A stretch of DNA of 64,000 bases from Urbifossiella limnaea (lineage in GTDB: Bacteria; Planctomycetota; Planctomycetia; Gemmatales; Gemmataceae): NCBI RefSeq assembly GCF_007747215.1, contig NZ_CP036273.1:7114322-7178321 (forward strand), given 5' to 3'. Shown here one piece after another: positions 8,157 through 59,022 of this stretch (the first letter of the stretch is position 1; each line of letters opens with the position of its first letter). The position numbers were made by a program, and so were the translations under genes. The notes under the pieces were generated by a model that was not told the origin of the DNA, did not search any database, and saw nothing but the letters and a program-made list of their open reading frames with translations.

Positions 8157-10433
8157 TCAGCCGACGTAGACGCCGCCGGGCAGGATGGCCCCGAACGGGT
8201 CGAGGTCCTGGAACGCGGCCGGCTCGGCGGGGCCGGTGATGTTCCGCCCCAGGTACACCCGGACCCGGCTCGGCGACCCCTCCCCGCTCCCTGCCACCAC
8301 GTCCGCCCGGCGGTCGTTGTCCAGGTCCGTGGCCGCCACCCGGACCCCGCCCCGGGCGGACGAGTCGCCGGCCACGAAGAAGTCCATCAGCGGCGACATC
8401 TCAGCCGATTCCAGGTTCGCGTTGAGCAGGACCTGGCCGGACAGGGCGCGGACCCGCGGGGCTCCGCCCGGCCCGCCGCCGAAGACCAGGTCCGCGGCCC
8501 CGTCCCCGTCGATGTCCCCGGCCGCCAGGTACACCCCGTTCCGCAGGGTCGCGGCGTCCGCCCCGGGGAAGGCGAAGAAGTCGTTCCGCAGCCGGGTCGG
8601 TGTGTCGAACACCGTCCTCCCGTCGAACAGGGCCACCCGCGGGCCGCCGCCGAACCCGGCGGCCACCACCAGGTCCGGCGTCCCGTCGGGGAACACGTCC
8701 CCGACGGCCGGCCGGGCTCCGCCCCGGAAGTTCGAGTCGTCGATCCCGAAGAAACTGGCCCGCAGGACCGGGGCGGCCCCGGCCGGCAGGGAGAAGATCA
8801 CCACCCGCGGGCCGCCCCCCTGGTCCGGGGTGAACACCAGGTCCGCCCGCCCGTCCCGGTCCAGGTCGCCCGCGGCCGCGAACAGCCCGCCGGTGAAGTT
8901 CGGGTCCCCGAACGGGTCGGTCGGGCCGACCAGGACGGTCGTGTGGTCCGTCCCGCTGACGACCGCGAACCGGACCGGGGTGCCCGGGCCGGTCGCCAGC
9001 ACGGTGTCGTCCACCCCGTCCCCGTTCACGTCCCCGGTGGCGACCCGGACCGCCCCGGCGAACCCGGGGAAGACGATCGGGGTGGCGGCCGGGCCGCCCG
9101 GGATCGCCCCGGTGGTCGGGTCGGCGGTGTAGACGGCCGCCCGGCCGTCCGCCGTCCCGCTCGCGGCCAGGTCCTCGGCGGTCGCCGCCCCGAGCAACCG
9201 GACCGCCTTCCCGGTCCCGGCGTTGGTGGTCCCGGCGGCCACGATCGTTCCACCCGGGGCGACGACCACCCGCGCCGGACCGACGATCGGCGAAAGCGAC
9301 GCGATGTTCGGCCGGCTCCCGCCCGGGTCGAACGTCGGGTCGAGGTCACCGGCCGCGGTCAGGCGGAACACCTCCCCGGCCGAGTCGACCCCGATGACGA
9401 CCACCTTCCCGTCCGGTTGCACCGCCACCCCGGTGCCCACGAAGTGGTTCGCCGTGATCCCCGGGAGGTTTCCCGAGAACGACCCGCCGTGGAAGGTTGG
9501 GTCCGGGGCCCCGGTCGCGGTGCGCTTGCTCACAACGAGGACGGTGGAGAGCAGGAACTTGGCCCCGGTCGCGTACACGTTCCCGGCCGGGTCGGTGTCC
9601 ACCGCGTTCGCCCAGTCCATCCCGCTCAGCCGGGCCGTCCCGTCCCCGGCGAACGTCGCGTCGAGGGCCCCGGCCGGGGAGAGCCGGGCGACCGAGGCCT
9701 CCAGGTCGGCGAAAGCCACGATGTTCCACGACTGCCCGGCGAGGACGATCCGGCCGGCGGGGTCCAGGGCCAGGTCGAACGCCTTCTCGTTGTCCGCACC
9801 GCGGATGGTGAACGACGTCACCCCGCCGCCTCCGAACCCGGCGTCCAGGATGCCGGCCGACGTGAGCCGGGCGGCGGCGAACCGGCTGATCGTGCCGGTC
9901 GTGGTGTACCCGCCGACCACCACCCCGCCGTCGGCCGGGTCCACGGCCACCCCGGTGGCGGTGTCGGTCGCCCCCGCCGCGACGTGGAATGCGACCGTCC
10001 CGCCCGTCCCGAACGTCGGGTCCGGGGCACCGGCCGCGGTCAGCCGGGCGACCGCGAACCGGCCGAGGTCGCCGGTGGTGGAGACGCCGGCCACCACCAC
10101 CCGGCCGGCCGCGTCGAGGGCGACGGCGGCCGCCACGTCGTCCCCGCCGGCGATGTCGACGGCCGCGGTGCCGCCGGTCCCAAACGTCGTGTCCGGGGTG
10201 CCGTCCGGGTTCAGCCGGGTGACCAGGAAGTCGTGCCCCCCGGCCCCGTCCGCGGTCCCGGCGAGGACCACCCGGCCGAGCGGGTCCACGACGACCGCGG
10301 CCGCCCCGCCCAGGTCCGGGCTGACCCCGGCGACCCCGAAGCTCGGGTCGAAGGTTCCGGCCGCGGCCGGAACCTCTCGCGCCTCCAGCCGCTCCAGCCC
10401 GATCCGGTCCGCCGGGTGTGGTCGCCGTTTCAT
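8157..10433 (-). CDS. Delta-60 repeat/FG-GAP exported protein, paralogue 1
   Basis: 758 residues. The N-terminus has the planctomycete extracellular signature (LERLEAREVPAA, residues ~13-24). About six delta-60 repeats follow (L-D-P-x-F-G-x-G-G ... V-A-V-x-P-D-G-K-V-V-V-x-G ... V-A-R-L-x-x-x-G), residues ~28-410. FG-GAP blades run from ~450 to the end (DVNGDGVDD, DLDRDGRADLVF, DIDGDGAADLVF). It ends GGVYVG. The ATG at 10433 has AGGGG about 8 nt upstream. It starts 27 bp after the stop of the next paralogue and is probably the last gene of a three-gene transcript. The two fold types suggest a tandem pair of beta-propellers displayed outside the cell; ligand unknown. It shares the architecture of its neighbours but not the identical DNA block. 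Confidence 0.85.
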   Translation of the reverse strand: MKRRPHPADRIGLERLEAREVPAAAGTFDPSFGVAGVSPDLGGAAAVVVDPLGRVVLAGTADGAGGHDFLVTRLNPDGTPDTTFGTGGTAAVDIAGGDDVAAAVALDAAGRVVVAGVSTTGDLGRFAVARLTAAGAPDPTFGTGGTVAFHVAAGATDTATGVAVDPADGGVVVGGYTTTGTISRFAAARLTSAGILDAGFGGGGVTSFTIRGADNEKAFDLALDPAGRIVLAGQSWNIVAFADLEASVARLSPAGALDATFAGDGTARLSGMDWANAVDTDPAGNVYATGAKFLLSTVLVVSKRTATGAPDPTFHGGSFSGNLPGITANHFVGTGVAVQPDGKVVVIGVDSAGEVFRLTAAGDLDPTFDPGGSRPNIASLSPIVGPARVVVAPGGTIVAAGTTNAGTGKAVRLLGAATAEDLAASGTADGRAAVYTADPTTGAIPGGPAATPIVFPGFAGAVRVATGDVNGDGVDDTVLATGPGTPVRFAVVSGTDHTTVLVGPTDPFGDPNFTGGLFAAAGDLDRDGRADLVFTPDQGGGPRVVIFSLPAGAAPVLRASFFGIDDSNFRGGARPAVGDVFPDGTPDLVVAAGFGGGPRVALFDGRTVFDTPTRLRNDFFAFPGADAATLRNGVYLAAGDIDGDGAADLVFGGGPGGAPRVRALSGQVLLNANLESAEMSPLMDFFVAGDSSARGGVRVAATDLDNDRRADVVAGSGEGSPSRVRVYLGRNITGPAEPAAFQDLDPFGAILPGGVYVG

Positions 10434-15256: not shown

Positions 15257-15782
15257 GTGGGAGTTCCTCGTGGGTGATGAGGTCAACAGCCTGACGCCCG
15301 CGTCTTCCGGCGCCGGGGGGCGTGAAGTTGGACAACGGCTTGTGTCGGCTTCCAAAGGCAAAGCCGTAGCCGGTGCCGTCAGGATTGTGGGAAAACCGGA
15401 ATACGACGGAGTGGCTTGTGGTTTGGACCGCCGGGGGGTGCGGACGGCTGGGGCCGGCTGTGCCGTTCGTCGCCACCTCTCCCGTTCGTGTGCCGGCCCC
15501 GCACACGGCGGCGGTCGGCCGGGCCGCGCTCCCGATTCGGAGCACCAGCGACCCCGGCGGCAAGCCGCTATGCCCGTGCGGGGCGGTCTGGGGGAGATCA
15601 CGCGCTCGGCCGCGCCGGGCGGTTGGCGGTCGTCGACGACGAGCCGGAGTTGGTGGCCGCCCTGTGCGAGTCCTTCCGCACGGCGGGACCCGAAGTGACC
15701 GGGTTCAGTACCGCCGAACTGTCGCACACGACGCTCGCGTCGGGAGGCGGGACCTTCGGAACTGGCATCCGCCGAGGCGCGA
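15257..15782. other. Intergenic region containing a receiver-domain remnant
   Basis: This 526-base gap lies between the start of paralogue 3 and the stop of the thioredoxin-CcdA gene, both on the minus strand. It should hold the promoter of the FG-GAP tandem, but I see no convincing hexamers. The part at 15617-15725 is a coding remnant (see its own entry); the rest shows nothing recognisable. Confidence 0.5.
15617..15725 (+). pseudogene. Response-regulator receiver domain fragment
   Basis: The + frame reads GRLAVVDDEPELVAALCESF and then an E-V-T-G-F-S-T-A-E-L stretch. This is the first ~35 residues of a CheY-like receiver: the beta-1 strand and the DDE acidic pair, then alpha-1 and beta-2. 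It stops short of the phospho-acceptor strand and runs into unrelated sequence, with no plausible start codon immediately before it. It is read as the remnant of a deleted two-component gene, internally truncated on both sides. Confidence 0.65.
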
Positions 15783-17237
15783 TCAACCCGCTGGGGTTGT
15801 TCGCGACGGCGGGTGCGGCGCGGCGGCCCGGTTCGCCCGGGCCACCACCCGGTGCCCCAGGACGATCGCGGCCGTCCCCCCGATCGCGGCCGCGAGCGTC
15901 GCGGCGGCTCCGAGGAGGTTGCCCAGAAGTCCCGGGTCGGAAAGGAGAACCACCCCGAGCGCCAGCATCATCATCCCGGACAGCAGCTTGAGCACCCGCC
16001 CCTGGTACTCCGTCAGCTTGTGCGACGACAGGGTGACGGAGAACCCGACCACGATCAGAAACAGAGGGGTGACGTAAACCAGGTTGTAAAGCGCGAGGTA
16101 GCCGTAGTACCCGGCCGGCGGCAGGTCCCGCAGGGTCAGCACCCGGGTGTAGACGAGCGGGAAGCCGGCCGTGCAGAGCAGCTCGTAGGCGTTCGCGGCG
16201 AAGGCCAGCGCCGCGGTGCCGGCCACAAGCGCCGGCAGGCCGTCCGCGCCGCCGACCGCCTGCATCCGGTGGACCAGCCGCGACCGGGCCGAGTCGGACA
16301 GGGACAGCGACACTCCCTGCTTGAACCAGAAGTAGTCCTTGATGTTCACCACAGCGACCGCGGTCGCCACGGCGCCGGCGGCCAGGGTGATGGCCCGCAT
16401 GTGCCCGACCAGGAAGAACAGGTTCAGCCACGCGGCCATGAACAGGAAGTAGACCAGCCCGGAGACGGCCACGAACACCCCGCCGACGAGGAGCATCCGC
16501 GGCCGGCTGCCGGTGCGAAACATCAGCCCGAGCAGGATCAGCAGGACGAAGAAGGCGCACGGGTTGAACGAGTCGAGCCCGCCGAGGACCACCGTCAGCG
16601 CCGGGAGCGACACCTCCTCCGGCCGGACCGCGCCCCACCACGGCACGTCCACCGTCGCCGCCTCCGGCGGCGGGGGTAAGTCGAGGTCGAGCGGCAGGTC
16701 GAGGTCCGGGTCCTGGGCCGCCGGGACGCCGTCGGGCGCGGCGAGGAGCAGCAGCATCAGGGGCACCGCGGCCGGCGGGGGCGGGGCGGGCGGCGGTGGC
16801 GGCGGGCGGCGGTCGTCCACCTGCTTCTGGAGGGCGGTCCGGTAGTAGACGAGGGCGGCCTCCAGCCGCTTCCCGGTCGTGGCGTCGCCGAGGTAGCCGA
16901 TCTCCATCTGCTTGCAGTAGAAGAACGCCGGCACCTGCCCGGCCTGCTTGCCGACGCCCACCGCCATGCGCCGGTAGTGGTCCATATTCGCCGGGCTGCC
17001 GGACGTCTCGTAGGCGGTCACGGCCAGCCAGTCGTGGCGCTTCTGGAGCCCGTCGAGGAAGGTCCGGGCGGCCGTGCAGTGCGGGCACGTCCGCGAGTAG
17101 AAGAGGTACAGGTTCACCTTCACCTTGCCGTCCTTGACCTCGTACCACTTCACGGCCGGCGGGGCGTCGTCGGCCGCGGCGGGGGCCGCGACCACGGCGC
17201 CGAGGAGGAGCGCCAGGACGAGACGGGACAGGTTCAT
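15783..17237 (-). CDS. Thioredoxin-CcdA/DsbD-like membrane thiol-redox protein
   Basis: 484 residues from the ATG at 17237, preceded by GAGGAG at ~6 nt. Residues 1-22 form a signal peptide. Residues ~30-130 are a thioredoxin-like domain with a CPHC active site (Cys51, Cys54). A proline-rich linker (~140-157) leads to a polytopic membrane domain with NPCAFFVLL at ~222, the CcdA/DsbD-type NPC motif, and a second Cys in ELLCTAGFP. About seven hydrophobic helices follow. Expected to pass electrons across the inner membrane to or from an exported thioredoxin domain, as in cytochrome c maturation or envelope disulfide reduction. The domain order is thioredoxin first, then CcdA. The gene is divergent from csrA across a palindrome array. 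Confidence 0.85.
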   Translation of the reverse strand: MNLSRLVLALLLGAVVAAPAAADDAPPAVKWYEVKDGKVKVNLYLFYSRTCPHCTAARTFLDGLQKRHDWLAVTAYETSGSPANMDHYRRMAVGVGKQAGQVPAFFYCKQMEIGYLGDATTGKRLEAALVYYRTALQKQVDDRRPPPPPPAPPPPAAVPLMLLLLAAPDGVPAAQDPDLDLPLDLDLPPPPEAATVDVPWWGAVRPEEVSLPALTVVLGGLDSFNPCAFFVLLILLGLMFRTGSRPRMLLVGGVFVAVSGLVYFLFMAAWLNLFFLVGHMRAITLAAGAVATAVAVVNIKDYFWFKQGVSLSLSDSARSRLVHRMQAVGGADGLPALVAGTAALAFAANAYELLCTAGFPLVYTRVLTLRDLPPAGYYGYLALYNLVYVTPLFLIVVGFSVTLSSHKLTEYQGRVLKLLSGMMMLALGVVLLSDPGLLGNLLGAAATLAAAIGGTAAIVLGHRVVARANRAAAPHPPSRTTPAG

Positions 17238-17401
17238 CGGGGCTCCTCGGACGGGGCGCGCGTGGATACCCGCAGGGTGTCGCACGGGCGGTAGCGGGAC
17301 GGAATGGGACTGTCCCAACGCAAGTCCGGAGCCAATCGCCCGCGTCCGAACCGGGGCCGCGCCGCCGGGCGCCACCGCTCCGACCCCACCCTCGCCGGCG
17401 G

Positions 17402-17527
17402 CCCGGGTGTGCAGGGCGGGCACACCCGGGTGGCGCCGTGTGCGGCCCGGCACACCAACCGGCGCCGAGTGCGGCGAAACCAGACCGGCACTCGGGTGTG
17501 CGGTAGTGCCAGACCGGCACACCGCAC
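17402..17527. repeat. Array of four imperfect palindromes, ~32-bp period
   Basis: Four inverted repeats follow one another in the 486-bp gap between the divergent thioredoxin-CcdA gene and csrA. Unit 1 (17402-17430) has perfect 11-bp arms, CCCGGGTGTGC and GCACACCCGGG, with a 7-nt loop. Unit 2 (17438-17455) has GTGTGC/GCACAC arms, flanked by a GGCGCC pair at 17432 and 17461. Unit 3 (17466-17494) has CGAGTGC/GCACTCG arms. Unit 4 (17498-17527) has GTGCGGT/ACCGCAC outer and GTGCC/GGCAC inner arms with a 5-nt loop. Centres are 30-34 bp apart. CCAGACCGGCAC occurs in units 3 and 4. Either an operator array for a regulator or a structured leader RNA. Nothing else was seen in this gap. Confidence 0.75.
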
Positions 17528-17723
17528 GACCGCCGTGGTCGCAGCCGTGGCGCCGCCTGCGGAGTTGCTGCCGGCCCGTTCTTGCCCAAACCCCTGTGGC
17601 GGTATCAGTTTGCCAAGTCGAGGCGACCGCGTCGGCCCGGCGTCTTGAGGACTTGAGCCGTTTCGGCCTCGGGGTTGCTTTCCACGGGTCGGAGCCAACA
17701 CCAACCTCTGGACGGAACCAGCC

Positions 17724-17900
17724 ATGCTCGTACTCACCCGGAAGGGCGGCCAGGAAATCGTGATCGACGGCCGCGTCCGTGTCACCATCCTCGCCGTGGG
17801 CGGTGACCGGGTGCGCGTCGGGATCACGGCCCCGCCCGAGATCCGGGTGGACCGAGCCGAAGTCCACGAGCGGCTGGTCGAATCCGCCGAGTCGCGGTGA
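17724..17900 (+). CDS. csrA: Carbon storage regulator CsrA
   Basis: 58 residues, opening MLVLTRKGGQEIVIDGRVRV, which matches the CsrA family from the first residue. The RNA-binding residues Leu4, Arg6 and Arg44 are present; the helix after V-D-R-A-E-V is typical. It is a homodimeric post-transcriptional regulator that binds GGA motifs in mRNA leaders and blocks or stabilises translation. Two GGA triplets (17710-17712 and 17714-17716) lie in its own ribosome-binding region, as expected for autoregulation. That regulatory reading is inference. It lies ~194 bp downstream of the palindrome array and 86 bp before a BON-like gene. Confidence 0.93.
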   Translation: MLVLTRKGGQEIVIDGRVRVTILAVGGDRVRVGITAPPEIRVDRAEVHERLVESAESR

Positions 17901-17986: not shown

Positions 17987-18244
17987 ATGCTTCACACACC
18001 CACCGGGCCGGTTCACGTGCTGCCCGCCCACGCCGCGGAACCTGAGTCCACCGCCCTCCTGCTCGCGGCCGACATCCGACTCCGTCACCGAGGGCTGCTC
18101 CGGGAGTTGTGCATCGAGGTCCGTGACGGCGGCGCGGTCCTCCACGGCCATGCGGTCTCGTACTACGGCAAGCAGATGGCCCTCCACGAGGCGCGGCGGA
18201 TCGGGATCGCCGTCGTCGCGAACCGGATTGTGGTTGACCACTGA
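17987..18244 (+). CDS. BON-like small domain protein
   Basis: 85 residues. After a short leader, residues ~30-85 follow the BON pattern: short helix, then L-C-I-E-V-R-D-G-G-A-V-L-H-G-H-A, a basic Y-Y-G-K-Q helix and a terminal VVANRIVVDH strand, matching the usual G-V-x-x-V-x-N-x-I-x-V ending. There is no signal peptide, so it is probably cytoplasmic, unlike classical OsmY. BON domains bind phospholipid or serve as interaction modules. The start codon choice is weak (only GAG ~6 nt before). It may be co-transcribed with csrA. An alternative is an unrelated small alpha/beta protein. Confidence 0.65.
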   Translation: MLHTPTGPVHVLPAHAAEPESTALLLAADIRLRHRGLLRELCIEVRDGGAVLHGHAVSYYGKQMALHEARRIGIAVVANRIVVDH

Positions 18245-18599: not shown

Positions 18600-19778
18600 A
18601 TGACCCCCGCCGACGCCCAGTTCAGCCGATACCAGGACCTCCAGCGGTACGTCGGCTGGACGGACGACGACGCCCGGAACGTCCGGTCCGTCGCCGCCCT
18701 CCTCGACCCGCACCTGGCCGGGTTGGTGGACGACTTTTACGCCGAGATCGAGCAGCACCCGGCCGCCCGAAAGGTGATCACCGGCGGCGCCGAGCAGATC
18801 GCGCGGCTCAAGGGGACACTGCTCGACTGGCTCCGGCAGCTGCTGGGCGGCCCGTACGACCGCGAGTACGTCGCCCGGCGGTGGCGGGTCGGGTGGCGGC
18901 ACGTCGAGATCGGCCTCGACCAGGTGTACACCAACGTCGCCCTGTCCCGCCTCCGCCGCGGCCTGCTCCGGGTCGTCACCGAGGCCTGGCCGGGCGACCT
19001 CCGCGACCTCCTCCCCGTCCGCCAGTCGCTCAACACCCTCCTCGACCTGGACCTGGCGATCATCGAGGACGCCTACCAGGCCGAGTACCACGCCCGCCAT
19101 CAGCGGACGGAGCGGATGGCCGCCATCGGGCAGGTCGGCGGCGGCATCGCCCACGAGCTGCGGAACCCGCTCAACGTCATCAAGACTTCCGTATACTACC
19201 TCCTCAACGCCAAACACCCGACCCCGGCAAAAACGGCCGAGCACCTCGGCCGGATCGAGCGCCAGGTCGTGCTCGCCGACGGGGTCATCACCGCCCTGTC
19301 GAACTTCGCCCGCATGCCGACCCCGGACCTCAAGCCGATCCCGATCCGTCGGGTGGTCGAGGAGGCGGTCGAGTCGAACCCGCCGCCGGCCGGGGTCGTT
19401 GTGACCCACGACTGGCCGGCCGACCTGCCGGACGTGCTCGCCGACGCCGACCAGCTGCGGATCGTCTTCGCCAACCTGGTCCGCAACGCACGGGAGGCGA
19501 TGGGCGGCACCGGCACCCTCACCCTGGCCGGGCGGGCCGCCGGGGGTGGGGCGGTGGTGACCACGGTCACCGACACGGGGGGCGGAATCGCGCCGGAAAA
19601 CCTGGGCCGGGTGATGGAGCCGCTGTTCACCACCAAGGCCCGGGGCATCGGCCTGGGGCTCGCGCTGTCCCGGGCCATCCTCGAGAAGAACAAGGGGAGC
19701 CTGCGGGTGGCCAGCACGCCCGGGCAGGGCACGACGTTTACCGTCCGGCTGACGACCGCGGAGGGGGACCGGGTATGA
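18600..19778 (+). CDS. Globin-coupled sensor histidine kinase
   Basis: 392 residues, cytoplasmic. Residues ~5-160 are a protoglobin/globin-coupled-sensor domain: FSRYQDLQRYVGW at the start and the proximal-haem region YVARRWRVGWRHVEIGL with His101 as the candidate haem ligand. Residues ~170-235 are HisKA with phospho-acceptor His185 (IAHELRNPLN). Residues ~275-390 are HATPase_c with N-box NLVRNAREAM, DTGGGIAP and GIGLGLALS. It should sense O2, NO or CO through haem and autophosphorylate. Its stop overlaps the ATG of the tandem-receiver gene (19775), which implies translational coupling and makes that protein the likely phosphate acceptor. The ribosome-binding site at 18600 is poor. Confidence 0.88.
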   Translation: MTPADAQFSRYQDLQRYVGWTDDDARNVRSVAALLDPHLAGLVDDFYAEIEQHPAARKVITGGAEQIARLKGTLLDWLRQLLGGPYDREYVARRWRVGWRHVEIGLDQVYTNVALSRLRRGLLRVVTEAWPGDLRDLLPVRQSLNTLLDLDLAIIEDAYQAEYHARHQRTERMAAIGQVGGGIAHELRNPLNVIKTSVYYLLNAKHPTPAKTAEHLGRIERQVVLADGVITALSNFARMPTPDLKPIPIRRVVEEAVESNPPPAGVVVTHDWPADLPDVLADADQLRIVFANLVRNAREAMGGTGTLTLAGRAAGGGAVVTTVTDTGGGIAPENLGRVMEPLFTTKARGIGLGLALSRAILEKNKGSLRVASTPGQGTTFTVRLTTAEGDRV

Positions 19779-20533
19779 CGACCGCCGCACCGGCGATTCT
19801 CGTGGTGGACGACGAGCCGGACGCCTGCCGGAACCTCGCCGACATCTTCACCGACCTGGGGTACCGGGTGGACACGGCCCCCGACGGGCCGGCCGCCCTG
19901 GACCTCGTCCGGAAGTTCCCGTACGCCGTCGCCCTGCTCGACTTCAAGATGCCGGGGATGGACGGGCTGGAGCTGTACCGGGAGATCAAGCGGCTCCGGG
20001 CCGGCACGGTCGCCATCATCGTGTCGGCGTACACCAGCCTGGCCACCCGGGACGCGGCCCTCGGGGCGGGGGCGTGGCGGGTGCTGTCCAAGCCGGTCGA
20101 TCTGCCGCGGCTCCTCGGGCTGGTGGACGAGGCCGTCGGGCAGCCGCTGGTCTTGGTGGTGGACGACGACCCGGACCTGTGCGCCACGCTCTGGGACCTG
20201 TTCCGCGAGCGCGGCTTCCGGGTCTGCATCGCCCACGACGCCGCGGACGCGGCCGAGCGGATGGGCACCGGGCCGTTCAAGGTGGTGCTGATCGACATGC
20301 GGCTCCCGGCCGGGGACGGGTCGGCCGTCTTCCGGATGGTCCGGGAGTCCTGCCCGGACGCGCACACGGTGCTCATCACCGGACACCGGGAGGAGCTCGG
20401 CGACCTGGTCCACGAGGTGCTCCGCGCGGGGGCCGACGCCGTCTGCTACAAGCCGTTCGACGTGCCCGGGCTGCTCGACACGGTCGGGCGGCTGAGCCGG
20501 GACGAGCCGGCCGGTGGGGATTCGCATGCTTGA
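19775..20533 (+). CDS. Tandem receiver (REC-REC) response regulator
   Basis: 252 residues. REC1 (~7-118) has the acidic pair Asp12-Asp13, phospho-acceptor Asp56 (LLDFKMPG) and Lys in LSKPVD. REC2 (~125-245) has VVDDDP, Asp174 (LIDMRLPA) and Lys in CYKPFD. Both look competent. There is no output domain, so it probably carries phosphate between the globin-coupled kinase before it and the hybrid kinase after it, or binds a partner. The start overlaps the previous stop by 4 bases (ATGA), and the next gene's ATG (20526) lies 8 bases inside this gene's end. The three genes are therefore translationally coupled. Confidence 0.88.
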   Translation: MTTAAPAILVVDDEPDACRNLADIFTDLGYRVDTAPDGPAALDLVRKFPYAVALLDFKMPGMDGLELYREIKRLRAGTVAIIVSAYTSLATRDAALGAGAWRVLSKPVDLPRLLGLVDEAVGQPLVLVVDDDPDLCATLWDLFRERGFRVCIAHDAADAAERMGTGPFKVVLIDMRLPAGDGSAVFRMVRESCPDAHTVLITGHREELGDLVHEVLRAGADAVCYKPFDVPGLLDTVGRLSRDEPAGGDSHA

Positions 20534-22079
20534 GCCCGCCCCGTTCACCGTCCTGGTGGTGGACGACGACCCGGACACCCGGGCCAACCTCCGCGACATC
20601 CTCGACCTCGACCGGTACCCGGTGGTCGAAGCCGCGTCGGTCGCCGACGCCCTGGCCCGCGACGACTGGAGCCGGTACGGGGCGGTGGTCCTCGACCGGC
20701 AACTCCCCGACGGGACCGCCGAGGACCTGCTCCCCCACCTCCGGCGGCTCGCCCCGGACGCGGCGGTCGTGATCGTCACCGGGTTCGACGACCTCCACGG
20801 GGCGGTGGCGGCGTTCCGCCTGGGGGCGGCCGACTACGTCCTCAAGCCGGTGAACGCGGACGAACTCCGCACCCGGTTCGGGCGGCTGGTCGAGGCCCGG
20901 CGGTACCGGGACGCGTTGCGGGAGAGCCAGGAGTTTGCCCGGGCCGTCCTCGACTCCCTCTCCGCACACATCGCCGTCCTCGACCGAGCCGGGGCGGTGG
21001 TGGCGGTGAACGCCGCCTGGGACGCGTTTGCCCGGGAGCGGCAGGGGGACCCGGACCGGTGCGGGGTCGGGGCCAACTACCTGGAGGTCTGCCGGCGGGC
21101 GTCCGGGCCGTTCGCGGAGGAGGCACCGGTCGTCGCGGCGGGCATCCGCGACGTCCTCGCCGGGGTCCTGCCCCGGTTCGTCCTCGAATACCCGTGCGAC
21201 TTCGTGGACCAGAAGATGTGGTTCGCGATGATCGTCACCCCACTCGGCCCCGACCGCCGGGGGGTCGTGGTGTCCCACCTGGACATCAGCGACCGGAAGC
21301 GGGCCGAGGAGGACCTGCGCGCGAAATCCGAGGAGCTCCGGGCCACGACCCAGCAGTTGTGGCAGGCGGCCCGGCTGGCCGGGGTCGGCGAACTCGCCGC
21401 CAGCCTGGCCCACGAGTTGAACAACCCGCTCGCCACCGTCCACCTTCGGGTCGAGGGGCTGCTGGCGAAAACGCCGCCGGGCGACCCCCGCCGGCGGCCG
21501 CTCGAGGTCGTGGACCAGGAGGTCACCCGGATGGCGGGTCTGGTGGGCAACCTGCTCGGGTTCAGCCGGGCCGGGCGGGACCAGGTTTCCACCGTGGACG
21601 TGTGCGAGGAGGTCACCCGGACGGCCGAGTTGGCCGCCCAACACCTGCGGAAGCGGCAGATCCGGTTCCAGCCCGAGTTCACCCCGGCGGGGCAGGTCAT
21701 TTACGCCGACCGGCAGCAACTCCGGCAGGTGTTCCTGAACCTGTTCACCAACGCCGCCGACGCCATGCCCTCCGGCGGCCGGCTGACCGTACGGGTCGCC
21801 CCCGGGACGCTGCCGGGCGGGCGGGCGGCCGTGGTTGTGGACGTGGCCGACACCGGGTCGGGCATCCCGCCGGAGCACCTAACCCGGGTGCTCGACCCGT
21901 TCTTCACGACGAAGGAGGAGGGGAAGGGGACCGGGCTGGGTCTGGCCATCTGCCGGCGGATCGTCGAGCAGCACAACGGCGCCCTGGAGATCGACAGCCG
22001 GGTCGGCGCGGGGACCACCGTCCGGGTCACCCTGCCGGTCCGCCCGGACACGAACGTGGCACCCCTCCGGCCCGCCTGA
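20526..22079 (+). CDS. Hybrid sensor kinase REC-PAS-HisKA-HATPase
   Basis: 517 residues from the ATG at 20526, with GGGGA ~6 nt upstream; an in-frame GTG at 20514 is less likely. REC (~6-120) has phospho-acceptor Asp57 (VVLDRQLPDG) and LKPVN. Residues ~135-258 are a PAS domain (LDSLSAHIAVLDRAGAVVAV to HLDISDRKRAEE). A short coiled coil leads to HisKA with His296 (LAHELNNPLA). HATPase runs ~385-505, with NLFTNAADAM, DTGSGIPP and GTGLGLAI. The N-terminal receiver should make kinase activity depend on phosphorylation from the upstream pair. Last gene of the overlapping phosphorelay; an IS3-type end begins 22 bp after it. Confidence 0.88.
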   Translation: MLEPAPFTVLVVDDDPDTRANLRDILDLDRYPVVEAASVADALARDDWSRYGAVVLDRQLPDGTAEDLLPHLRRLAPDAAVVIVTGFDDLHGAVAAFRLGAADYVLKPVNADELRTRFGRLVEARRYRDALRESQEFARAVLDSLSAHIAVLDRAGAVVAVNAAWDAFARERQGDPDRCGVGANYLEVCRRASGPFAEEAPVVAAGIRDVLAGVLPRFVLEYPCDFVDQKMWFAMIVTPLGPDRRGVVVSHLDISDRKRAEEDLRAKSEELRATTQQLWQAARLAGVGELAASLAHELNNPLATVHLRVEGLLAKTPPGDPRRRPLEVVDQEVTRMAGLVGNLLGFSRAGRDQVSTVDVCEEVTRTAELAAQHLRKRQIRFQPEFTPAGQVIYADRQQLRQVFLNLFTNAADAMPSGGRLTVRVAPGTLPGGRAAVVVDVADTGSGIPPEHLTRVLDPFFTTKEEGKGTGLGLAICRRIVEQHNGALEIDSRVGAGTTVRVTLPVRPDTNVAPLRPA

Positions 22080-55779: not shown

Positions 55780-58700
55780 ATGGAAAACGATCGGGCGGAT
55801 TATCAATTCGACGTCTTCCTGAGCCACAACAGCAAGAACAAGGCTGAGGTCCGCGAGCTCGCCGACCGGCTCGAGTCGCGGGGCTTGAAGGTCTGGCTCG
55901 ACGAGCGGGAGTTGATACCCGGGAAGCCGATCCTGGACGCCCTGGAGGCGATCATCCGGTCGACGCGGACGGCGGTCGCGGTCATCGGGGCCGACGGACT
56001 GGGCCCGTGGCAGGTGCCGGAACTGCGGTTGTGTCTCCAGCAATTCATCAACCACCAGCTCACCGTCATCCCGCTCCTGCTGCCGGGGTGCGCCAAGCAG
56101 CCGGCCCTCCCGCTGTTTCTCGGCACCGTCTTGTGGGTCGACCTGCGGGGCGGCCTCACCGAGGAGGGGCTCGACCAACTGGAGTGGGGGATCACCGGCA
56201 AGAAGCAAACCCCCGCCCCGCCGCCGCCGCCGGCCGGGCGGTCGTACCTCGACTTCGTCCTCCAGGTCCGACCGGCCGACGACGGCCGGGACTACACCGT
56301 CCGCGCGCTCACCCCGGGGGGCGACGGCACCGGCCGGATGCGGCTCCCGTTCAGCGACGGGGCCCTCGACCGCCACCTGCTCGAGTTGCAGAACGCCGTC
56401 CTCCGGTCCGACGGGGCGCGGCGGGGCGCGGTCGCCCGGGTCGAAACGCCGGCGAAGGAACTCGGGGCCGGGTTGTACGAGGCCCTGCTCGGGGGGGCGG
56501 TCGGCGAGCGGTACGAACAGGTCCGGCGCGACGCCGTCCGGCAGGGGGCCGGGGTCCGGCTCCGGCTCGACCTCGAGTCCGCGGAGCTCAGCCGCCTCCC
56601 GTGGGAGTTCCTGTACAACCGCGCGACCGACCAGTTCCTCTGCACCCGGAACACGACACTGGTCCGGTACCTCGACACCGGCCAGCCGGTGACCCCCGCC
56701 GCGGTCGCGTGCCCGCTCCGGATCCTGGCCGTCGTGGCGTGCCCGCGCGACCTGCCCCCGATCGACGTCGCGGCCGAGAAGGCGTGTATGGAGGTGGCGC
56801 TGAAGCGCCTGACCGACCGGCGGGCGGTCGCGCTGACGTGGCTCGACGCCGCCACCTACGAGAGCCTGGAGGCGACCCTCCAGTCCGGCTCCTGGCACGT
56901 GCTCCACTTCATCGGGCACGGGCGGTACGACGCGGCCGCCGACGAGGGGCTGTTGTTCTTCGACGACGGGGCCGGGGGGATCGACGAGCGGTCCGCCCAG
57001 CAACTGGCCCTGCTGCTGGGCGACTCCCGGGCCCTGCGGCTGGTGACCCTCTGCTCGTGCGAGACGGCCGCGGGCGGCCCGACCGGCCGGCCCGGGGGCA
57101 CCGCGGCCACGCTCGTCCGCGAGGGCGTCGCCGCGGTGGTGGCGATGCAGTACGAGATCAGCGACAAGGCGGCGGTCAAGTTCTCGGAGCGGTTCTACCA
57201 GGCGCTGGCCGACGGGCTCCCCGTGGACGCGGCCGTCCTCCAGGGGCGGCGGGCCGTGGCCATGTCCGTCCGGAACTCGGTCGAGTGGGGGACGCCGGTC
57301 CTGTACACCCAGTGCGCGGACGGCGTCCTGTTCGGCATCACCCCGCAGGCCGCGGTCGCGCCGCTGCCCGTCGCACCCCCGCCGCGCCTCGTCGTGGCCT
57401 CCCCGCCCGCCCCGCCCGCCGCCGCGCCGGTGCCACAACCCGAGCGGTCCCAGGCTCCGCCGCTGATCGATGTCGCACCCCCGCCTCGCCCCGTCGAACC
57501 GGCGCCGCAACCGCTGCCCCCGCCGGTCGCGGCGCCCGTGTCGTCCCCGCCGGTCGAGCCGGGGTACTGGAAGACTCCGGAACTCCGCGTGCTGGTCATG
57601 CTGGCGTGCGCCGACGAGTCGCTCGGGCGGGAGCTCGCGCAGTACGCCCGCCGGTACGACCCGGCGCTGCCGGTGTTCCACAAGCACGAGGACGAGCCGG
57701 ACTACCACCTGTTCGCCACGAACCAGTCGTTCCTGGTCGAGTGGCGGTCTGTCCCGGCCGCCGCCCTCCCGGCCGAGGTGGACCGCTTCTTCCTCCAGGG
57801 CGACACCCGCCTGCTCGTCGTCGTGTCGGACACCCTCGCCGCGCCGGCCGGCGCGGGTCGGTACGAGCCGACCGCGGCGGCGGCCGACCTCCGGGCGCGG
57901 CTCCTGCCCCGGACCAACTACTACGGCGGGCTGATCGCCCTCGTCCCGGGCACGGCGTCGCGCACCCCGGACCTGGACCGGACGCTCGACGCGCGGGCCG
58001 TGGACCGCGACGTGCTGCGGGACGCGGTGGCGACGGTCGCCGACGGCCTCCGGCTCAAGGCGCCCCCCGGCCCGCCGCGCGAGTTCCTGGCGGGGGACTC
58101 GGTCGTCGTGAAGGCCGCCTCGACGCGCGCCGAACTGCGGGCGTGCCTGCGACTCCGCCACCTGATCTACGACCGCATGGGGTACCTGAACGACCACGTC
58201 TCCGGGTGCCCCGCGCGGCTCGAGCTCGACCGGTTCGACGGCTTCGACACCGCCGGCCGGCGGGGCACGCTCCACCTGGTCGCTCAGCTCCGGCACGGCG
58301 GGGTCGACCAGGAGGTGGTCGGGGCCGCCCGCCTGGCCTTCGCCCGGCACATCCCGGAGGAGGACCGGCCGACCCTACTCGGGCCGGACCCGACCGCGGC
58401 GCTCGTCCGCCAGTCCCGGCTGATCCGGGAGATCCTGGACGACCTGCGGGCGACGGGGGACGAGAAATCGGCGGACGTGCTCGCGGCTCAGATGGCGAAG
58501 AAGGGGTTCGGCACCCTCCCGATCCTCCAGTCGACGGACTTCGAGGCCAACAACCGGACGATCCTGCAGGACGCGGGGGACATGGCGGAGCTCAGCCGGG
58601 TGGTCGTCGCCCCCCAGTTCCGGGGGTGCGGGCTCTCCCGCCTGCTGGTCCGCGCGGCCGTCGCCGTGGCGATGGACCTCCGCAAGAAGATGCTCCTGCT

Positions 58701-59022
58701 GGAGTGCGTCCCGGGCCACGTGCCGATGTACCAGAAGTTCGGGTTCGAGGCGATCGAGGGGTGCCACACCCGCGCCCAGGACCTCGACCAGAAGGCGGTG
58801 GCGATGATGATCCGCCCGCAGAAGGGGCGGCTCGACGCGGTCGTCAAGCAAGACCTAAAGATGTTGGCCCTGGGCCCGGCCAGCGCCCTCGCGGCCCCGT
58901 ACCTGTGCCTGTGCGACAACCTGACGTGCTGGTCCACCGGCCGGTACGAGTCCCGCACCAAGCAGACCTGCCCGCTCTGCCCGCCGGCCGCGCCCGCACC
59001 GGCGCGGCCGGCCGCGGTCTAG
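55780..59022 (+). CDS. TIR-CHAT-unknown-GNAT/FeeM-like acyltransferase fusion with Cys cluster
   Basis: 1,080 residues, cytoplasmic. The ATG at 55780 is fixed by an in-frame TAA 16 bases upstream. TIR ~8-140: FDVFLSHNSKN, LKVWLDERELIPG and Glu81 in PWQVPELRL at the NADase catalytic position. CHAT ~155-520: His380 (HFIGHGRYD) and Cys427 (LCSCETA). A Pro/Ala linker (~525-595) is followed by an unrecognised alpha/beta region (~598-765). GNAT-type acyltransferase ~768-1,012: RLRHLIYDRMGYLND and LELDRFD recall FeeM/LuxI-like N-acyl synthases, and VVVAPQFRGCGLSRLL is the acyl-CoA loop. The end has a C-x-C...C...C-P-L-C cluster (~1,043-1,067), possibly zinc-binding. The downstream methyltransferase gene starts 25 bp later. 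The combination suggests a stress or defence effector that also makes or modifies an acylated small molecule; this is inference. Confidence 0.88.
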   Translation: MENDRADYQFDVFLSHNSKNKAEVRELADRLESRGLKVWLDERELIPGKPILDALEAIIRSTRTAVAVIGADGLGPWQVPELRLCLQQFINHQLTVIPLLLPGCAKQPALPLFLGTVLWVDLRGGLTEEGLDQLEWGITGKKQTPAPPPPPAGRSYLDFVLQVRPADDGRDYTVRALTPGGDGTGRMRLPFSDGALDRHLLELQNAVLRSDGARRGAVARVETPAKELGAGLYEALLGGAVGERYEQVRRDAVRQGAGVRLRLDLESAELSRLPWEFLYNRATDQFLCTRNTTLVRYLDTGQPVTPAAVACPLRILAVVACPRDLPPIDVAAEKACMEVALKRLTDRRAVALTWLDAATYESLEATLQSGSWHVLHFIGHGRYDAAADEGLLFFDDGAGGIDERSAQQLALLLGDSRALRLVTLCSCETAAGGPTGRPGGTAATLVREGVAAVVAMQYEISDKAAVKFSERFYQALADGLPVDAAVLQGRRAVAMSVRNSVEWGTPVLYTQCADGVLFGITPQAAVAPLPVAPPPRLVVASPPAPPAAAPVPQPERSQAPPLIDVAPPPRPVEPAPQPLPPPVAAPVSSPPVEPGYWKTPELRVLVMLACADESLGRELAQYARRYDPALPVFHKHEDEPDYHLFATNQSFLVEWRSVPAAALPAEVDRFFLQGDTRLLVVVSDTLAAPAGAGRYEPTAAAADLRARLLPRTNYYGGLIALVPGTASRTPDLDRTLDARAVDRDVLRDAVATVADGLRLKAPPGPPREFLAGDSVVVKAASTRAELRACLRLRHLIYDRMGYLNDHVSGCPARLELDRFDGFDTAGRRGTLHLVAQLRHGGVDQEVVGAARLAFARHIPEEDRPTLLGPDPTAALVRQSRLIREILDDLRATGDEKSADVLAAQMAKKGFGTLPILQSTDFEANNRTILQDAGDMAELSRVVVAPQFRGCGLSRLLVRAAVAVAMDLRKKMLLLECVPGHVPMYQKFGFEAIEGCHTRAQDLDQKAVAMMIRPQKGRLDAVVKQDLKMLALGPASALAAPYLCLCDNLTCWSTGRYESRTKQTCPLCPPAAPAPARPAAV

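Follow-up and report, generated by a model that had tools for sequence, protein, structure and literature searches.

Organization of the csrA locus

The window, meaning the whole stretch of 64,000 nucleotides analysed here, contains a csrA gene (17724–17900, plus strand) encoding a protein of 58 aa (PF02599, 66.9 bits with a cut-off of 27), the predicted target of the elements described below. It is followed on the same strand by the gene of an 85-aa protein with an SYYGKQ motif (17987–18244). This protein, which goes by a BON-like name, has no Pfam or NCBIfam match, and its gene is probably part of the csrA operon. The divergent gene (15783–17238, minus strand), also without Pfam or NCBIfam match, is called thioredoxin/CcdA-like by its CPHC motif and by the label given in an earlier sequence-only reading of this DNA. 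ARAGORN calls two tRNA-Arg genes on the minus strand, one of 92 nt within the csrA intergenic region (17290–17381) and one at 8590–8679. Both calls are without Rfam tRNA support and probably false. Elsewhere in the window, a 1080-aa TIR-CHAT-acetyltransferase fusion protein is encoded at 55780–59022 (plus strand).

The 485-bp intergenic region between csrA and the start of the divergent gene (17238) harbors four inverted repeats at 17402–17523. Unit 1 (17402–17430) is the strongest site. Its arms (17402–17412 and 17420–17430) are 11 bp long, 100% complementary and separated by a 7-nt spacer. The core GGTGTGC-N7-GCACACC (17406–17426) is the sole exact N7 match within the own genome. Unit 2 (17437–17456) is a CGTGTGC-N6-GCACACC variant with a spacer shortened by 1 bp, which misfits the N7 matrix described below. 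Unit 3 (17465–17495, CCGAGTGC-N15-GCACTCGG) is weak or degenerate, and all N7 matches here have scores of 2 or less. Unit 4 (17495–17523) reads GGTGTGC-N15-GCACACC and holds two overlapping N7 sites, 17495–17515 and 17503–17523, with matrix scores of 16.1 and 14.3. Exact 6-bp arms are found at 17407–17425 (GTGTGC, spacer 7), 17438–17455 (GTGTGC, spacer 6), 17467–17493 (GAGTGC, spacer 15) and 17496–17522 (GTGTGC, spacer 15). The left arms start at 17407, 17438, 17467 and 17496, corresponding to steps of 31, 29 and 29 bp. The array consists of several dyads in tandem with helical phasing, as a sigma-54 enhancer (UAS) requires. The four inverted repeats and the perfect 11-bp arms of the first had been recognized in the sequence-only reading and are confirmed. 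The centre it gave for the fourth (17513) exceeds the true one by about 4 bp, and spacer length varies between the units.

On both strands, the predicted fold of the array is more stable than that of each of 200 dinucleotide shuffles (z of -4.3 and -4.5). A scan for hairpin clusters covered 864,000 bp of the own genome in 41 pieces, window included. Four non-overlapping hairpins with similar arms within 135 bp are present at two places, the csrA array and a CCG-repeat tract, and the array is the sole cluster of this kind that is not of low complexity. The complete 141-bp stretch is absent from all 40 relatives searched; conservation between relatives is limited to the units and their spacing. 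Units 2–4 share diverged direct-repeat segments (D1–D5), a probable sign of growth by local duplication.

Hairpins of other types were observed as well. A closely similar element of ~200 bp with several inverted repeats (GCAGGC..GCCTGC, CCCAGGGC..GCCCTGGG) occurs at L066:18880–19100 and L077:19440–19680 and is a dispersed repeat of the own genome. Downstream of csrA, a hairpin AAGCCCACC-N5-GGTGGGCTT recurs at three loci (L005, L008 and L019). Among hairpin arms of the own-genome sample, AAGCCC shows the highest enrichment (11 vs 0), and this hairpin is perhaps a terminator-like element.

A sigma-54 promoter for csrA is predicted at 17664–17679 (plus strand, CGGCCTCGGGGTTGCT). It has the GG-N10-GC pattern, agrees with the consensus in 8 of 12 positions and lies within a few hundred bp downstream of the array, as a sigma-54 enhancer requires. 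Sigma-54-like sites are placed likewise in L056 (10/12) and L127 (9/12). The predicted promoter of the divergent gene (17319–17334, minus strand, TGGCTCCGGACTTGCG) scores 9/12. These two are the sole sites of at least 8/12 in 17239–17723 and both face outward, which supports the earlier proposal that csrA and the divergent gene are controlled together. The background has to be considered here: sites of at least 8/12 occur 1.2 times per kb per strand and the csrA promoter scores just 8/12, while GG-N8-TTGC occurs 0.26 times per kb per strand. The divergent gene is a possible second target, and the evidence for it is weaker than that for csrA. Near a full kinase-regulator cluster in L236, a homologue of the divergent gene is preceded by a 10/12 minus-strand site, ~107 bp from where the homologous region starts. 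At the locus of its orthologue in G014, neither csrA nor units were seen. The own genome contains rpoN (DBD 198 bits) and gives 25 matches to PF00158, several of them weak; by these matches it encodes both sigma-54 and bEBPs, as a sigma-54 enhancer requires. In the drafts G004 and G010, rpoN was not found.

Recurrence of the units in related genomes

Comparison between genomes yields the motif GGTGTGC-N7-GCACACC, often in tandem at 30–34 bp and upstream of GG-N8-TTGC sites. The nearest relative in gene order is represented by a Gemmataceae MAG record and genome G004 of the same genus (L056/L126), in which csrA is followed by the same 85-aa protein. Upstream of this csrA, GGTGTGC-GACGGCG-GCACGCC and GGTGGGC-CATAGAC-GCACACC are placed 32 bp apart. 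A second G004 locus (C398) shows GGTGTCT-N6-GCACACC and GCTGTGC-N7-GCACACC upstream of a csrA copy that appears decayed from reading its translation. In three of three loci a GG-N8-TTGC site is located between the units and csrA (CGGCCTCGGGGTTGCT in the window, CGGCCCGGCGCTTGCT and CGGCCGGCGGGTTGCT). G075, which belongs to another genus, has a csrA (L237; 49% identical over 47 residues) with a unit and TGGTACAGACTTTGCA upstream. A csrA of G021 has a perfect unit upstream, with no sigma-54-like site behind it.

Orthologous csrA upstream regions had been suggested in the sequence-only reading as a check of the array. Units are present at two loci within the genus that share the gene order of the window, and at one csrA of another genus, whereas most csrA homologues examined are without units. 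The latter include four paralogues that were fetched from the six csrA-like matches of the own genome, none of which has GGTGTGC units upstream. Three of these paralogues (L062, L063 and L064) have strong sigma-54-like promoters of 10–11/12 at -63, -63 and -178. Since sigma-54-like sites are present in three of the four and units in none, separate activators for separate csrA paralogues are suggested. This fits the enrichment of CsrA among predicted sigma-54 genes in the available part of PMC12316311.

In G004, GGTGTGC-N7-GCACACC with up to one mismatch gives 8 matches vs 0 for the reversed control. The N7 pattern has 31 matches vs 15 for the control in ten genomes, with most of the excess coming from G004. 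An exact palindrome search with spacers of N4–20 covered 41 genomes, in most of which the matches did not clearly outnumber those of the reversed control. In addition, 40 loci around regulator orthologues (616,862 bp) were scanned. With at most one mismatch, spacer 7 yields four units, compared to 0–1 for the other spacers between 3 and 15. With at most two mismatches there are 16 units, against a mean of 5.9 and a maximum of 24 for permuted arms, some of which exceed 16. Unit pairs at 28–34 bp number four vs a control mean of 0.06 (maximum 3), and pairs at any distance from 8 to 120 bp amount to five, spaced by 24, 30, 31, 32 and 34 bp. An outward GG-N8-TTGC is near 13 of the 16 units, compared to 21.7% of random positions.

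A matrix built from 22 units of other genomes was run on a 1.344-Mb sample of the own genome, with a small overlap. It gives 28 matches with scores of at least 12. The top seven are all located in the window or at 696–716 kb, beside outward sigma-54-like sites, and include the window sites 17406 and 17495; Unit 1 (18.3) ranks fourth in 1.34 Mb. Among matches of at least 12, an outward GG-N8-TTGC within 320 bp accompanies nine of nine in the window or L194 vs one of 19 elsewhere. The number of matches of at least 14 (13) is not above that of permuted arms (mean 9.1, s.d. 8.9, maximum 54). As the consensus was first taken from the csrA array, the matrix retains some dependence on it, and the sigma-54 linkage and the spacing are the more independent evidence.

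In G004, units precede csrA (C1096, 32 bp apart), the decayed csrA copy, PFOR (POR_N), the prismane/hybrid cluster protein (hcp), Usp and a hox-type operon with thioredoxin-like 2Fe-2S and Nuo51-type subunits (C1136, a pair 32 bp apart). At each of these targets a GG-N8-TTGC site is present between unit and gene. In the own genome, three further unit clusters (pairs of 30 and 31 bp and a single unit) are located at 696–708 kb beside a regulator orthologue. They serve an operon of Usp and the regulator, a DksA/TraR zinc-finger gene and a molybdopterin/Nuo51 operon, with outward sigma-54-like sites at each. From its reading, the last operon is probably formate-dehydrogenase-like. In other genera (L238, L240, L241 and L244) the units lie between divergent sigma-54 sites of CGGCAC- or TGGCA-type, and a homologue of the 85-aa protein is the neighbor of the units in L244. 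Near regulator orthologues outside this genus, the regulator gene itself, a DksA-like gene and a phosphoketolase are among the single targets. Units were predicted at PFOR and hcp of the own genome and none was found there. The region upstream of own-genome hcp (L195/L162, 7464 kb) is AT-rich and TTGACA-type and, unlike that of G004, has neither units nor a sigma-54 site. An apparent promoter replacement distinguishes the hcp genes of the two genomes.

Regulator and kinase genes

Downstream of the 85-aa protein, the window encodes a protoglobin histidine kinase (NmpU-like; 18600–19778, plus strand; PF11563, PF00512, PF02518), a double receiver protein (NmpT-like; 19772–20533, plus strand; two Response_reg stretches) and a receiver-histidine kinase hybrid (NmpS-like; 20514–22079, plus strand; PF00072, PF00512, PF02518). 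The three genes adjoin one another in the combination expected of an NmpRSTU system. The best PDB match of the protoglobin kinase is the globin-coupled kinase 5ohe (E 2.5e-33), which we take to be AfGcHK, the NmpU homologue. AfGcHK is named as such in the available part of PMC6211767.

The regulator of G004 is NtrC-type (REC-AAA-Fis) and is located on the same contig as csrA and hcp. Its orthologue in the own genome is 76% identical, is found at 693 kb together with another hybrid kinase and adjoins the units at 696 kb. Of 95 family genomes, 49 have an orthologue that passes E 1e-130. All four types, i.e. kinase, double receiver, hybrid and NtrC-like regulator, are contiguous in L126, L232, L236, L264 and L267. 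An intact regulator gene is absent from the window, 6.4 Mb away from the orthologue, and no sigma-54 activator domain is present in the window proteins scanned. The window has just a short receiver-like stretch at 15611–15709 (plus strand), which shares 58% identity with the receiver domain of the NtrC-type regulator across 33 aa and may be what is left of a regulator gene since lost. An isolated unit (CGTGTGC-N7-GCACACG, 15487–15507, scores 19.2 and 18.8) is located ~100 bp before it.

A probable sigma-54 enhancer at csrA

Most likely, the array is a sigma-54 enhancer that is bound by an NtrC-type, NmpR-like regulator and activates csrA. The same palindrome could be recognized by a different regulator, a repressor or an activator independent of sigma-54, and this would agree with the spacers of 6, 7 and 15 bp, unusual for one dimer, and with the window proteins, which gave no activator domain. 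However, the units adjoin an NtrC-type gene in several genera and are linked to sigma-54-like promoters in the 13 of 16 cases given above, which makes a different regulator unlikely. The idea of a cooperative, helically phased operator array, put forward in the sequence-only reading, agrees with the recurrence of units at 30–34 bp before csrA and co-regulated genes elsewhere.

That reading also considered four consecutive hairpins, and the strong folding predicted on both strands upstream of csrA would suit an RNA element in the csrA leader or a small RNA binding CsrA. Yet in 27 homologous units, whose selection by consensus similarity disfavors double changes, arm changes break a pair 29 times, lead to G-U 12 times and compensate once (1 of 42). 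Because pairing is broken far more often than it is compensated, the units are regarded as a DNA operator and not as RNA hairpins. Furthermore, there are 0 Rfam matches in the window, GGA is not in the unit loops, and the predicted start near 17690 leaves the array upstream of the csrA transcript and untranscribed. An RNA element is thus very improbable, and equally improbable is a dispersed hairpin element or decayed mobile repeat with no regulatory role. The direct-repeat segments of Units 2–4 suggest local duplication and another hairpin array is dispersed in the own genome, but GTGTGC hairpins are rare (5 in 864 kb), form no dispersed family and stand elsewhere at promoters of functionally coherent genes. 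The idea of a genome-wide repeat was dropped on this ground.

For the sigma-54 enhancer we infer the following course. Dimers of the NtrC-type response regulator would bind the tandem GGTGTGC-N7-GCACACC sites on about one helix face and, upon phosphorylation, form an active AAA+ oligomer on the array. DNA looping would then activate sigma-54 RNA polymerase at 17664–17679, which would drive csrA. The transcript probably takes in the genes of the 85-aa protein and the protoglobin kinase behind it. A second output would probably be activation at 17319–17334 and expression of the divergent thiol-redox gene. The most likely activator is the NmpR-like regulator at 693 kb, which would be driven by the protoglobin-kinase phosphorelay, and since the signal would pass through this kinase, low oxygen would switch the array on.

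The NtrC enhancer of glnA has a spacing of 32 bp, i.e. three helical turns. Like the array, it has tandem dyads about three turns apart, with a sigma-54 promoter within a few hundred bp downstream; it differs in dyad sequence and in signal, which is not nitrogen here. The remark in the sequence-only reading that no known feature class explains the repeats is incorrect, as a class in which activators bind in tandem ahead of a sigma-54 promoter is described in the accessible section of PMC4740811. The motif and its wiring to csrA appear to be new.

The closest counterpart is NmpRSTU of Myxococcus xanthus. According to the part of PMC11841059 available, this system responds to oxygen, depends on sigma-54, regulates its own expression and has tandem sites. 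Common to both systems are the protoglobin kinase, the double receiver and the receiver-kinase hybrid (PMC11841059 and PMC6211767, in part); an NtrC-like regulator joins them in the clusters of the relatives named above, while its own-genome orthologue lies apart at 693 kb. Autoregulation and low-oxygen genes are predicted here as well, with tandem dyads upstream of sigma-54-like promoters; the Myxococcus sites are 14–15 bp apart in a repeat of ~29–30 bp. However, the NmpR site reported there is GCGCA-N5-TGCGC, a pattern that the planctomycete sites (GGTGTGC-N7-GCACACC) do not follow, with half-sites facing oppositely. Myxococcus has two sites in the account available, compared to up to four here, and predicted targets here include csrA, hydrogenase, formate dehydrogenase and PFOR. 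The available text of PMC6211767 mentions nmpSTU homologues in a Planctomyces, and neither account gives a motif for a planctomycete NmpR in the text available. Among predicted sigma-54 genes of Planctomycetia, the CsrA (COG1551) and Usp (COG0589) groups are enriched, and a sigma-54 promoter of csrA is noted for Pirellula sp. strain 1; the section of PMC12316311 at hand assigns no activator or enhancer motif to csrA in this predicted regulon. In the literature searched, as far as its text was available, all descriptions of NmpR come from Myxococcus, and an enhancer motif for csrA of planctomycetes was not found.

The Gemmataceae may possess an undescribed sigma-54 low-oxygen regulon, a proposal for which we see an even chance. 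It would combine GGTGTGC-N7-GCACACC enhancers with an NmpR-type phosphorelay and let oxygen control a dedicated csrA paralogue together with hydrogenase, formate dehydrogenase, PFOR, hybrid-cluster protein, phosphoketolase, Usp and DksA-like genes. Other paralogues of the cell have sigma-54-like promoters without the sites, and each of several signals would then act through a separate CsrA. An unexplained repeat becomes a testable operator and provides a search motif for a planctomycete low-oxygen regulon. An NmpR-type system, studied in Myxococcus, would operate here with a different recognition sequence, and oxygen sensing would feed post-transcriptional control via a dedicated CsrA, a global RNA-binding regulator.
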